DNA from: Syntrophobotulus glycolicus DSM 8271
GTDB taxonomy: Bacteria; Bacillota; Desulfitobacteriia; Desulfitobacteriales; Syntrophobotulaceae
DNA length: 64,000 nucleotides
Direction: 5' to 3'
NCBI RefSeq assembly: GCF_000190635.1
Contig: NC_015172.1
Coordinates: forward strand, 558,001-622,000
Shown here one piece after another: positions 10,611 through 17,871 of this stretch. Below the pieces are notes generated by a model. It saw only the letters and a list, made by a program, of their open reading frames with translations, ran no database searches and had not been told where the DNA came from. The first letter of the stretch is position 1, and the number at the start of each line of letters is the position of its first letter. The translations under genes and the position numbers were made by a program.

Positions 10611-11525
10611 ATGCGAATGACGAATAATATGTTTTCACGGAATTTATTATTGAATCTTACAGCTGCCCAGGGGAAACTTGATAAGTTGCAAAATCAAATG
10701 TCCACCGGACTGCGTATCTTCAGACCTTCAGACGATCCGGTAGGGATTGAGAATGCCCTGCGCCTCAAAGGTAACCTCAGTATGGTTGCCCAGTATCAGA
10801 AAAATGCCGGCGAAGCTTTAAATTATATGAATACCACCGATTCAGTTTTGGGCGATCTAACAAAAATGATTCAAAGAGCTCAGGAATTGGTGCTCAGTGC
10901 CAATAACGGCACGAATTCCTTAAATGAAAGAAACGCCATTGCCCAGGAAATTAGTGAGATAAATGAGCAGGTTAAAGCATTGGCCAATACAAAAGTGGGC
11001 AATAAGTATTTATTTGCCGGCACAAAAACGGAACAAGCACCAATGTCCGGGGGGACTTGGTCAGGGAATACAGATTCGGTGCAATTTGATGTAGGTGAGA
11101 ACATCAAAATTTCCATCATGGTAGATGGACAGCAGTTGTTCACAACACCAAACGGTACTTACAGCTTACTAAGCGCCACAATTACTACTCCTGCAGGAAC
11201 TTCCGATGGTATCTTTGATCAGCTTTTGACCGAACTTGGCGGAAGTGATTCTATATCGGGAGAGGTCTTGGATTCTCTTGATCAGAATCTGCAAAATGTT
11301 ACGGCTTTGCGGGCGGAACTCGGAGCCCGCACCAATAGACTGGAATCAATTCAGTCTCAGCTGGCTTCTATGAATTACAATTTGCAGGCGAATCTGTCAA
11401 ATGTAGAAGATGTTGATATGGCCAAAGCCATCACTGATTTTACCAACCAGGTGAATGTTTATCAATCGGCTTTAGCCGTAGGGGCCAGGATTATTCAGCC
11501 CTCACTTGTTGATTTTATGAAATAA
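10611..11525 (+). CDS. flgL: Flagellar hook-associated protein 3 (FlgL)
   Basis: 304 residues with flagellin-like N-terminal coil (MRMTNNMFSRNLLLNL, LQNQMSTGLRIFRPSDDP) and C-terminal coil (NVEDVDMAKAITDFTNQVNVYQSAL). These pair to form the D0/D1 bundle. The shorter middle and the S-DDP signature separate FlgL from true flagellin. It makes the second junction layer between FlgK and the filament. GCGAGG lies upstream of the start. It is followed 15 bases later by the YviE-like gene. Confidence 0.93.
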   Translation: MRMTNNMFSRNLLLNLTAAQGKLDKLQNQMSTGLRIFRPSDDPVGIENALRLKGNLSMVAQYQKNAGEALNYMNTTDSVLGDLTKMIQRAQELVLSANNGTNSLNERNAIAQEISEINEQVKALANTKVGNKYLFAGTKTEQAPMSGGTWSGNTDSVQFDVGENIKISIMVDGQQLFTTPNGTYSLLSATITTPAGTSDGIFDQLLTELGGSDSISGEVLDSLDQNLQNVTALRAELGARTNRLESIQSQLASMNYNLQANLSNVEDVDMAKAITDFTNQVNVYQSALAVGARIIQPSLVDFMK

Positions 11526-12112: not shown

Positions 12113-12544
12113 ATGGAAGAGAAACAAATAAAAATAAAAATTCCTTTAGGAATTCCCGGTTTTGAAACTTATCATGAGTGGAACCTGATTTTGGAAAAGG
12201 ATACTCATCTGGCCCAGCTTGTTGCCATAAACAGCGAGTATGTAGGGTTTGTTTTAACACATCCTGAAGTTTATTTTCCATTATATATAGAAGAAATTGA
12301 ATTAGATTTTGAGGGTGAGCAAATACTTAGTGTTCAATGTGATACTAAGCTTGAGGTGTGGAATATTTTATGCTTGGACAATGATGTATTGAAAACTACA
12401 ATTAATTTAAAAGCTCCAATAATTATTAATTTAGAAAAGCAATTAGGTTATCAGTTAATTTTGAATGAAGAAAAGTATAATTCGAAGGTATTGTTATTCT
12501 CACAAAAGGAAGAAAGAAATTGTTCAGAAGGGGTGACAGGTTAA
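12113..12544 (+). CDS. fliW: Flagellar assembly factor FliW
   Basis: 143 residues, the family's length. Typical features are the opening GIPGFETYHEWNL and the central FVLTHPEVYFPLY. FliW is a beta-barrel protein that binds either free flagellin or CsrA. When flagellin is used up it sequesters CsrA and so frees hag translation (known in B. subtilis). AAGGAG precedes the ATG. The stop codon overlaps the csrA start by one base (TAATG), so the two partners are made together. The hag leader in this window has the expected CsrA site. Confidence 0.92.
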   Translation: MEEKQIKIKIPLGIPGFETYHEWNLILEKDTHLAQLVAINSEYVGFVLTHPEVYFPLYIEEIELDFEGEQILSVQCDTKLEVWNILCLDNDVLKTTINLKAPIIINLEKQLGYQLILNEEKYNSKVLLFSQKEERNCSEGVTG

Positions 12545-12789
12545 TGCTTGTTCTTTCCCGGAAGGTTAATGAAAGAATAAAAATCGGAGAAGGGGTTGAG
12601 ATTACCGTTGTATCGATCTCTGGTGATACTGTAAAGATTGGTATTGATGCTTCAAAGGAAGTAAAAATACTGCGCAGTGAAGTTTATGAAGAGATCAGCC
12701 GTCAAAATCAAGCAGCAGCCGAAACAAGTGACTTAGAACAAAGTCTGGAAGCAATCAATGCCCTGCGGGCTAAAATGGTTAAAGAGTAA
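12544..12789 (+). CDS. csrA: Carbon storage/translation regulator CsrA
   Basis: I start at ATG 12544 (81 residues): this gives the invariant opening MLVLSRKVNERIKIG, overlaps the fliW stop by one base, and has AGGGGTG eight bases upstream. CsrA is a small dimeric RNA-binding protein that covers GGA motifs in leader hairpins and blocks ribosome entry. The RNA-binding strand with VKIGIDASKEVKILRSEVY is intact. The last 25 residues form an extended helix longer than in E. coli CsrA, as in many Firmicutes. It ends the flgM operon. The obvious target is the hag leader at 17008-17043. Confidence 0.95.
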   Translation: MLVLSRKVNERIKIGEGVEITVVSISGDTVKIGIDASKEVKILRSEVYEEISRQNQAAAETSDLEQSLEAINALRAKMVKE

Positions 12790-12829: not shown

Positions 12830-13019
12830 AAGCTGAAAATCCAGAATGCGATTTATCGAGCTGATTTAGGATTTTTCTCATCCAATCAACTTCAACTGTC
12901 AATTGGCTGACTTTTCGCTCCAGGTCCGCGATGTGTCCATCTTCTTCAACTAGCTTTTTTCTGATTCAGACGGGCCCTTTCTTAAATATTTCAGCTGCTC
13001 TTTCCATAAACTCTGCTTT
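12830..13019 (-). pseudogene. IS3-family OrfA remnant
   Basis: Read on the minus strand from 13019, the frame gives KAEFMERAAEIFKKG, an in-frame TGA at 12966-12968, then KKLVEEDGHIADLERKV and QLTVEVDWMRKIL. This matches the C-terminal leucine-zipper part of IS3-family OrfA proteins (typical ending QLxVExDFLKKK). The N-terminal helix-turn-helix, OrfB and any terminal repeats are missing. The left border near 12830 is approximate. It is a relic, antisense to its surroundings. Confidence 0.6.
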
Positions 13020-13029
13020 TCAGCGCCCA

Positions 13030-13656
13030 CTCGTAAGTCATGAAATTTATCGGCAACAACATGAAATGTTCAAGAAGGGTAAGCACTCCATAGAGGATCG
13101 CATTGTCAGCCTGCATATGCCTTTTGTCAGACCCATTGTACGTGGCAAAGCGAGTGCCGATGTAGAATTTGGAGCAAAGCTTGCGATTAGTGTTGTCAAA
13201 GGGTTTAGTTTCATGGAGAATCTAAGCTTTGACGCTTTCAATGAGAGCAAAACATTGATGCAATCGGTTGAACACTACTACAAAAGGTATGGGTTTTATC
13301 CTGAAGCCGTGATGGCTGACAAGATCTATCGGAATAGAGACAACCTCAACTACTGCAAGAGGCTAGGCATTCGACTGAGCGGCCCACCACTCGGAAGACC
13401 ATCCAAAGATCAAGGACTATTAAGAGAACAAAAGAAACAAGAACGTCTGGATGCTGGAATTCGAAATGCTGTTGAAGGAAAATTCGGAGAAGGAAAGCGG
13501 TTTTATGGGCTCGGACGTATCATGGCACGTCTTAAGGGAACCAGTGAAACTGTTATCGCCATGCAACTATTGGTGATGAACCTGGAGCGTAGACTCCGGA
13601 TTCTTATACTCAATTTTATTGAAGGATATTTCAGACTGATCAGGTTAGCTTATTGA
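13030..13656 (+). pseudogene. IS5/IS1182-type DDE transposase, 5'-truncated
   Basis: About 208 codons homologous to the C-terminal part of IS5-like transposases: RPIVRGKASADVEFGAKL, then MADKIYRNRDNLNYCKRLGI, GPPLGRP and the region around the catalytic glutamate (VEGKFGEGKRFYGLGR). The frame opens further upstream but the residues before about 13030 do not look like transposase and come from the adjoining IS3 relic. With no N-terminal domain and no visible terminal repeats it cannot be autonomous. The fragment lies between csrA and rfbF, marking an insertion or recombination point. Confidence 0.75.
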
Positions 13657-16926: not shown

Positions 16927-16940
16927 GAGTCTAAAGACTC
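16927..16940. repeat. Inverted repeat enclosing the -35 of the hag promoter
   Basis: GAGTC-TAAA-GACTC is a perfect 5-base inverted repeat whose four-base centre is exactly the TAAA -35 element of the proposed sigma-28 promoter. It may be a regulator site overlapping the promoter, or chance. Confidence 0.35.
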
Positions 16941-16959
16941 TAAAATATCTTGACGATAA
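16932..16959 (+). promoter_or_regulatory. Sigma-28 (FliA)-type promoter of hag
   Basis: TAAA at 16932-16935 and GACGATAA at 16952-16959 match the sigma-28 consensus TAAA-N15-GCCGATAT, with a 16-base spacer. Transcription would start near 16966, giving an 84-base leader before the flagellin ATG. Flagellin is the classic FliA target, and FliA and FlgM are both in this window. Confidence 0.7.
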
Positions 16960-16978
16960 AGGAAGAGAAGAAGTAAAA

Positions 16979-16997
16979 TCCTCTTGCCGGCAGAGGA
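16979..16997 (+). promoter_or_regulatory. 5' leader hairpin 1 of hag mRNA
   Basis: TCCTCT (16979-16984) pairs with AGAGGA (16992-16997) around a GC-rich 7-base loop. It would lie about 14 bases from the predicted mRNA start, where a 5' stem commonly stabilises flagellin messages. It is not followed by a U-run, so it is not a terminator on this strand. Confidence 0.5.
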
Positions 16998-17007
16998 AAA
17001 AAATGTA

Positions 17008-17043
17008 CCACATGGATGTGGGCATAATGAAAAACATGGAGGG
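17008..17043 (+). promoter_or_regulatory. CsrA-binding hairpin and Shine-Dalgarno-overlapping second site in the hag leader
   Basis: CCACA (17008-17012), loop TGGA and TGTGG (17017-17021) form a perfect hairpin that presents GGA in the loop. The core ACATGGATGT is nearly identical to the known high-affinity CsrA consensus (ACARGGAUGU). A second ACATGGAGGG at 17034-17043 contains the flagellin ribosome site. Two sites, the second over the Shine-Dalgarno, is the arrangement known for B. subtilis hag. FliW and CsrA are encoded at 12113-12789. Confidence 0.75.
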
Positions 17044-17049
17044 ATAATC

Positions 17050-17871
17050 ATGATTCTGAACACGAATATTGCGAGTTTGAATACTCAGCGCAATCTGTTC
17101 AACACCAACAATGCTATGCAGAAATCTTTGGAAAAGCTGTCTTCAGGCTACAGGATTAACCGCGCGGCCGACGATGCCGCGGGTCTGGCTATTTCCGAAA
17201 CGATGAAGGCCCAGATTAATGGCCTGAATCAAGCTAAAAGGAATGCGCAGGACGGCATTTCTCTCATCCAGACGGCGGAAGGTGCTCTGAATGAGACGCA
17301 TTCTATTCTTCAGAGGCTGAATGAACTGGCTAACCAAGCTGCCAACGGAACTTATGACTCAACCACAGACTTGGCAAACATTCAAAAAGAAGTAGATTCA
17401 TTATTGACAGAAATTACTCATATTGCGACAAGCACAAAGTTTAATGGCAAGTCTTTGATTAGTTCAACGGGTGGTACGATCACCCTGCAAATTGGGGCAA
17501 CCTCCGCTTCCGCCGATCAAATGGCTATTACCCTTACAAGTGCTGATGTGGGTGCCTTGTCAGTTTCTTCTCTCAGTCTTAGTACTCAAGCAAGTGCGCT
17601 CAGTGCCATTGATAAAATTAGCGACGGCATCAAATCGGTTTCAACTCAGAGAGCTGTACTCGGTGCCTATCAGAACCGCTTAGAGCATACCATCAATAAT
17701 CTTGGCACGACTTCAGAAAACCTGTCTGCTGCTAATTCCCGTATCCGTGATGTGGATATGGCTGCGGAAATGTCTGAATTCACCAAGAGTCAGGTTCTCA
17801 ATCAGGCTGGTGTCGCGATGCTGGCCCAGGCTAATCAGGCTCCACAATCGATTCTTAAATTATTGGGTTGA
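17050..17871 (+). CDS. hag: Flagellin
   Basis: 273 residues from the ATG at 17050, which has GGAGGG six bases upstream and gives the canonical start MILNTNIASLNTQRNL. Upstream in-frame codons would add 22 unrelated residues. N-terminal coil (SLEKLSSGYRINRAADDAAG) and C-terminal coil (SRIRDVDMAAEMSEFTKSQV, ending QSILKLLG) are complete. The middle (about 140-205) is short and very rich in Ser, Thr and Ala, so the protein has only D0/D1 plus a minimal surface domain with many possible O-glycosylation sites. It forms the filament. It is controlled by the sigma-28 promoter and CsrA leader just upstream, and followed by a hairpin terminator. Confidence 0.97.
   Translation: MILNTNIASLNTQRNLFNTNNAMQKSLEKLSSGYRINRAADDAAGLAISETMKAQINGLNQAKRNAQDGISLIQTAEGALNETHSILQRLNELANQAANGTYDSTTDLANIQKEVDSLLTEITHIATSTKFNGKSLISSTGGTITLQIGATSASADQMAITLTSADVGALSVSSLSLSTQASALSAIDKISDGIKSVSTQRAVLGAYQNRLEHTINNLGTTSENLSAANSRIRDVDMAAEMSEFTKSQVLNQAGVAMLAQANQAPQSILKLLG

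Follow-up and report, generated by a model that had tools for sequence, protein, structure and literature searches.

Is the leader of the flagellin gene in Syntrophobotulus glycolicus simply another CsrA-controlled leader of the Bacillus subtilis hag type, or does it carry a further RNA element with a role of its own? S. glycolicus is an anaerobe that is reported to be non-motile despite its flagellar genes, and the genome of strain FlGlyR comprises 3,406,739 bases (PMC3156405). We have analysed positions 558001-622000 of this single-contig genome, a stretch of 64,000 nucleotides referred to below as the window, which contains flgM, flgK, flgL, a DUF6470 gene, fliW, csrA, a gene with a transposase domain, sugar-modification genes, the flagellin gene, flaG, fliD, fliS and a FlgN/FliT-like gene. 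The genes on which the argument depends are listed here in window coordinates.

10611-11525, + strand: FlgL-like flagellin-domain gene (PF00669/PF00700), with the GGA hairpin absent from its leader in a leader scan
12113-12544, + strand: fliW
12544-12789, + strand: csrA (TIGR00202), 81 amino acids with a C-terminal extension, its start overlapping the fliW stop
17050-17871, + strand, stop codon included: flagellin gene (PF00669/PF00700), 273 amino acids
17977-20930, + strand: flaG, fliD, fliS and the FlgN/FliT-like gene, downstream of flagellin

That fliW and csrA are encoded in the same window, as the initial annotation had it, is borne out by the domain matches, with PF02623 at 12113-12544 and PF02599 starting at 12544. 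The two genes lie 4.5 kb upstream of flagellin within a flgL-DUF6470-fliW-csrA block, and a single match genome-wide makes this the sole fliW of the genome. The 81-residue CsrA aligns with 1t3o and with chain D of 5dmb along its C-terminal extension, and in extended CsrA proteins it is the C-terminus that is bound by FliW (PMC7652899). A transposase DDE-domain gene at 12931-13656, just 3' of csrA, parts the fliW-csrA block from the flagellin region. The nearest flagellins from metagenome-assembled genomes are 81-82% identical to that of the window.

Four features, all on the + strand, make up the promoter and leader of the flagellin gene.

16932-16959, + strand: promoter of the sigma-D (sigma-28) type, read from the sequence, with TAAA at 16932-16935, 18 nt, and CGATAA at 16954-16959
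16979-16997, + strand: 5' hairpin, with UCCUCU (16979-16984), a bulged U16985, a G(CCGG)C apex and AGAGGA (16992-16997)
17008-17021, + strand: predicted CsrA hairpin, BS1-like, with CCACA (17008-17012), a UGGA loop and UGUGG (17017-17021), the GGA at 17014-17016
17034-17043, + strand: predicted second CsrA-type site, ACATGGAGGG, overlapping the Shine-Dalgarno sequence GGAGGG (17038-17043)

All three RNA elements that had been reported for this leader by the initial annotation are present, the 5' hairpin with exactly the same limits, 16979-16997. We place the probable transcription start near 16966, and the Shine-Dalgarno sequence lies 6 nt ahead of the ATG at 17050. Our preferred explanation as a whole, a sigma-D-transcribed leader of roughly 84 nt with three RNA elements that combine a CsrA switch with a conserved 5' hairpin whose loop is self-complementary, is probable. 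The minimum-energy RNA fold of the leader contains both hairpins, that around GGA being lengthened by AUGU/GCAU pairs, and the apex of the 5' hairpin is the palindrome GCCGGC (16986-16991). The 5' hairpin of S. glycolicus is modest, at -7 kcal/mol, and the complete leader exceeds its shuffles in stability by little (z -1.17), so that single-sequence folding alone is unconvincing. A GGCC- or CCGG-capped hairpin at least as strong as the 5' hairpin occurs once on the + strand of the window, and the same search on the - strand returns the 5' hairpin from the other side together with two unrelated hairpins. From the modest hairpin and the weak z score one might take the leader for an ordinary B. 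subtilis-type CsrA leader preceded by a chance hairpin, a reading that we regard as scarcely credible, since it is contradicted by the blind model search and by the enrichment in independent genomes that are described below.

Two other features of the leader were considered and rejected. An upstream open reading frame of 14 codons at 17003-17047 spans both CsrA sites, is preceded by AGAGG and stops 3 nt before the flagellin start; its frame is lost in one related leader (L087) and its start codon is missing in two others (L086 and L088), and we have set it aside as a chance occurrence. Pairing at long range between CCUCU (16980-16984) and the Shine-Dalgarno sequence, which appears in the centroid fold, is not conserved, the 5' arm being GGUUUCC-like in other family members, and on the fold model it could still form in S. 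glycolicus itself.

In order to gauge the CsrA site we have considered chance, conservation and consensus. The string ACANGGATGT is found once in 64 kb against 0.35 expected and is thus not significant as sequence alone, and a GGA-loop hairpin as strong as that of the window arises within 45 nt upstream of the Shine-Dalgarno sequence in 103 of 20,000 dinucleotide shuffles (p about 0.005). Flagellin leaders were gathered from 77 loci of other genomes and from the window's family, order and phylum, and a first set comprised 150 homologous leaders. In 99 of these a GGA-loop hairpin no weaker than that of the window lies near the start (shuffled mean 3.1, maximum 7), as against 0 of 6 FlgL-like paralogues, the leader of the FlgL-like gene providing a built-in negative control. 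For stem pairs we used 79 leaders picked solely by the position of ANGGA and blind to pairing: over six positions 76.6% of cells are paired as compared to 45.3% after shuffling (maximum of 1000 shuffles, 52.7%), double changes number 178 against 73.6, and compensatory changes are found at 6 of 6 stem positions. These leaders come from Firmicutes, Actinobacteria, Spirochaetes and others, nearly all related leaders share the layout with a second GGA over the Shine-Dalgarno sequence, and FliW and CsrA are found in nearly all relatives.

Because compensatory changes preserve the GGA hairpin across phyla, we count the window leader, by features that can be read from its own sequence, as a further member of the FliW-CsrA-flagellin switch, which on this distribution is an old and ordinary feature. 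The proposed parallel with B. subtilis hag is upheld: compensatory pairs conserve the GGA hairpin, the ribosome site is overlaid by a second site, and the genome has a single fliW with a csrA linked to it. Not so the further suggestion of an unusually close match between the first site and the in vitro consensus. This site reads ACAUGGAUGU, with U where the SELEX consensus RUACARGGAUGU has R (PMC7652899), while 12 of 150 leaders have ACANGGATGT, 4 of 150 have ACARGGATGT and the fliC leader of Clostridioides difficile is predicted to carry TGACAAGGATGT (PMC8523840), a better fit to the SELEX consensus than the window's site.

The comparison of leaders across relatives has a second side. While the GGA hairpin is kept across several phyla, it is lost or altered in one genus of the window's family, g11, despite the presence of fliW and csrA: in two genomes (G023 and G024) both genes are kept and the flagellin leaders are without a canonical GGA hairpin, the leader loops of G023 reading CAAGAUG or CAAGACG. 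Loss of the hairpin in relatives with fliW and csrA had been named in advance as telling against the switch; it is found locally, in g11. This genus looks more like a lineage with an altered CsrA-RNA pair than like a case against the switch in general. At the G023 locus L112, with flagellins at 361, 1329 and 2493, the hairpin is retained as UGCAAGAUGCA or GCAAGACGC with GGA cut to GA, one G short, and the Shine-Dalgarno sequence AAGGAGG is unaltered. In two genomes of g11, the open frames G022:C12:40887-41222 and G024:C13:32721-33056 hold two CsrA domains each (144 and 150 amino acids), a tandem or fused CsrA.

A second csrA lies elsewhere in the S. glycolicus genome, at L115:11147-11395 (G000:C1:1089147-1089395). 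Its product, of 82 amino acids, is 28% identical to the fliW-linked CsrA and nearest to CsrA structures of the Escherichia coli type. The gene immediately precedes another flagellin gene and belongs to an additional distal flagellar set (L115:2834-12701; FlgE-like, two FlgK-like, FlgL, FliD, unknown, CsrA2, flagellin 2) of this genome reported as non-motile. A GGA hairpin precedes csrA2 as well as flagellin 2, and in either leader a further GGA lies on the Shine-Dalgarno sequence, the csrA2 leader itself showing the hairpin GGCA-GGGAA-UGCC and the Shine-Dalgarno sequence AAGGAGGG, an arrangement that suggests autoregulation. There is no second fliW in the genome, and since FliW and CsrA of B. 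subtilis act near 1:1 (PMC6529632), the question arises whether csrA2 escapes FliW and represses itself.

We turn to the 5' hairpin. Within the window's family it has a fixed CCGGC core and changing stems (CCUCU/AGAGG, ACCUCU/AGAGGU, GGUUUCC/GGAAACC and UUCCAG/CUGGAA), the pair counts for the family coming from an imperfect alignment. More distant Firmicutes have a hairpin with the loop GCGGCCGA at the same place in the leader. In six such leaders, taken for the shared loop alone and aligned without gaps, 12 of 13 stem pairs have undergone double changes, and covariation scores 0.646 as compared to 0.297 for shuffled sets (0 of 500 reaching it). A covariance model of 44 positions, covering the 5' hairpin only and neither the CsrA sites nor the gene, was then searched in 398 genomes, and the 7 best matches, from 7 families, all lie just upstream of flagellin, established by tblastn for six and by the encoded N-terminus for the seventh (L150). 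In total 11 of the 30 loci examined are flagellin leaders; one locus (L146) is a contig from which a training sequence had been taken. Once the blind matches are added, double changes occur at 7 of 7 inner pairs, with a score of 0.768 against 0.246 shuffled (0 of 500).

Among 168 low- and mid-GC leaders, 50 have a GGCC- or CCGG-capped 5' hairpin, as compared to 0 in one round of single-nucleotide shuffling; about 70% have none that is detectable, and the element is accordingly not universal. The GGA hairpin is present as well in 47 of the 50. The 5' strand is bulged by 1-3 nt in 39 of these capped hairpins, and 4 contain a 1x1 mismatch, for example G.A. Rfam 15 covariance models gave no match at gathering thresholds in the leader region, with three weak chance matches at E<1, none of them in a leader; a plasmid search with the leader gave no match, and the open-access literature that was searched does not report a 5' hairpin of flagellin leaders. 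An exact-pattern genome scan for GCCGGC-GGANG-GGAGG was too loose to inform. The 5' hairpin appears to be a conserved RNA element with no Rfam entry, common to many distantly related bacteria and, going by Rfam 15 and the open-access literature searched, apparently undescribed. The inverted repeat might alternatively be a DNA operator for a dimeric transcription factor, near-palindromic DNA just 3' of a promoter being typical of operators, but we consider this very improbable given that the arms vary freely with compensatory changes, that the asymmetric 5' bulge spoils the dyad symmetry and that the repeat falls within the region that is probably transcribed.

A sigma-D-like -10 match of the CGA(T/A) type is found in 33 of 37 leaders with the 5' hairpin, usually 6-31 nt ahead of it, so that the hairpin should occupy the extreme 5' end of the transcript. 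Where flagellin genes stand in tandem (three Dehalobacter-like genomes of one genus, G119 and Allobacillus), the 5' hairpin is found on the first cistron only and the GGA hairpin on every cistron, from which we infer that the former acts per transcript and the CsrA site per cistron. One leader, L149 (G161), has the reversed order, with the GGA hairpin upstream of an GCGGCCGA hairpin, and the two hairpins are therefore modular; in this assembly fliW is present and csrA was not found.

Such a placement would also suit a hairpin that merely stabilises the 5' end by blocking RNase J or a 5' pyrophosphohydrolase, with the letters of the loop of little weight. The hairpin begins a few tens of nucleotides at most into the putative transcript, it is confined to the first cistron of an mRNA that is among the most abundant in bacteria, and its stems drift while stability stays constant. 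We nevertheless regard this as unlikely to be the whole explanation, for it leaves unaccounted the palindromic tetraloops (43 of 76, with about 2 by chance), the shared GCGGCCGA loop and the regular 5' bulge. The initial annotation had likewise seen in 16979-16997 a third hairpin that may stabilise the message; the hairpin is real, but it is not incidental: it represents, in this leader, an element that is widely conserved and whose loop is self-complementary.

It is this loop that sets the element apart. The apical loop is centred on GGCC in most lineages and on CCGG in the window's family, and family f2 of the same order has loops (A/G)CCGGCCGG that hold both GGCC-type and CCGG-type cores and so bridge the two. 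An automatic search for the best hairpin between -165 and -46 in 168 low- and mid-GC leaders found a 5' hairpin in 76, with a palindromic tetraloop in 43 of these (shuffled mean 2.1, maximum 4) and GGCC or CCGG in 35 (shuffled mean 0.1, maximum 1); the palindrome test was framed after the data had been seen, and the leaders are related, so that these counts are inflated and do not represent independent events. Other tetraloops found in some lineages, UCGA and CAUG, are self-complementary as well. The extended palindrome differs by lineage yet stays a palindrome: CGGCCG, CCGGCCGG, GCCGGC, GUGGCCAC, GGGGCCCC, UCGGCCGA, AUGGCCAU, UGUCGACA and GCAUGC. Since the pairs that flank the tetraloop are palindromic by construction, only the identity of the tetraloop is independent evidence for self-pairing. 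In three close relatives (L099, L101 and L102) the self-complementary core is reduced to CCGG. In three related spirochaete leaders, L058, L061 and L065, a hairpin with a bulge lies at about -111 and ends in the palindrome GCAUGC; it may be a 5' element of the same type.

For self-duplexes of the palindromes the computed energies range from -8 to -19 kcal/mol and are comparable to or above those of HIV-1 DIS palindromes, the same computation giving -10.9 for the DIS-type GCGCGC and -7.9 for GUGCAC. As read from the leaders, the combination of a bulge with a changing palindrome is as expected of a kissing-loop dimer site, where a change in the loop is allowed only if both halves change. That the loop does self-pair we put forward as plausible, if somewhat short of an even chance. 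A loop read by a protein or ligand that recognises GGCC- or CCGG-type apices with a 5' bulge, the palindromy then arising from a symmetric binder or being incidental, strikes us as distinctly unlikely, although GGCC predominates among the tetraloops, GCGGCCGA is invariant in 16 class-1 members (10 of which came from a search whose model scores the loop), 5' bulges of 1-3 nt are reminiscent of features that proteins recognise and the guanidine-II riboswitch pairs palindromic ACGR loops around its ligand (PMC7357161). The lineage-specific loops GGCC, CCGG, UCGA and CAUG are all self-complementary, something that a sequence-specific reader does not need. Pairing of GCGGCCGA with the coding sequence was also considered, in that the AAD codons of flagellin are able to read GCGGCCGAC and do so in the window, and was rejected as palindromic-loop leaders mostly lack GCGGCCGAC in their coding regions.

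The leader can be compared to known systems. CsrA-FliW control of flagellin has precedents in B. subtilis hag and Campylobacter jejuni flaA (PMC4894983, PMC6529632, PMC7652899). With hag BS1 and BS2 the window leader shares two CsrA-type sites, one in a hairpin and one over the Shine-Dalgarno sequence, as well as the fliW-csrA pair and a sigma-D-like promoter; it differs in that fliW-csrA belongs to the distant flgL-DUF6470 block and in that the genome has a second, divergent csrA. With flaA it shares leader GGA hairpins conserved by compensatory changes, which in C. jejuni are read by CsrA and countered by FliW (PMC4894983), an action that is predicted for S. glycolicus. The flaA leader is only 45 nt long and has two ANGGA stem-loops (PMC4894983), leaving no room for a 5' hairpin. 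The C. difficile fliC leader, of 91 nt, resembles that of the window in its predicted BS1, given above, and its predicted BS2, CTAAGGAGGG, and the available text of PMC8523840 describes no palindromic 5' hairpin. For the 5' hairpin itself the nearest likenesses are the kissing loops of HIV-1 DIS and of the oskar 3'-UTR, hairpins with a GC-rich apical palindrome of six nucleotides and extra nucleotides beside it (PMC7357161). These are viral or eukaryotic and their dimers have been demonstrated experimentally, whereas the flagellin element is bacterial, is a candidate dimer site and has a 5' bulge and a tetraloop rather than one 9-nt loop. In the guanidine-II riboswitch, too, bacterial mRNA leaders form short hairpins whose tetraloops are self-complementary, but its loops are ACGR and its two hairpins probably pair within one RNA around the ligand, and the flagellin leader has no Rfam match.

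Given the leader elements and genes observed here, with their linkage, position, conservation and covariation, the following mechanism may be proposed. The GGA hairpin and the GGA over the Shine-Dalgarno sequence would bind one CsrA dimer, blocking ribosome entry; export of flagellin would free FliW, which would remove CsrA from the leader, and cytoplasmic flagellin would sequester FliW, giving homeostasis as in B. subtilis. Binding of CsrA to this leader and its release by FliW are expected by analogy (PMC6529632, PMC7652899, PMC4894983, PMC8523840). The 5' hairpin would add kissing-loop self-pairing between flagellin mRNAs and would also shield the 5' end. We propose tentatively, as a doubtful but real possibility, that many Firmicutes and perhaps some Spirochaetes carry a 5' homodimerisation hairpin whose palindromic kissing loops stabilise or co-localise flagellin mRNAs alongside CsrA control. 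No precedent for loop self-pairing in a bacterial mRNA was found in the literature searched.

The CsrA half of this leader is ordinary, but it extends the hag switch, on the evidence of sequence, over several phyla. If the proposal is true, the 5' hairpin would serve bacterial mRNA specifically for dimerisation, and the literature searched describes no element of this kind. The flaA mRNA of C. jejuni is polar (PMC4894983). Should the loop self-pair, flagellin mRNA would be among the few bacterial messages in which a dimerisation site has evolved, and this would bear on the stability of flagellin mRNA and on its clustering or localisation.
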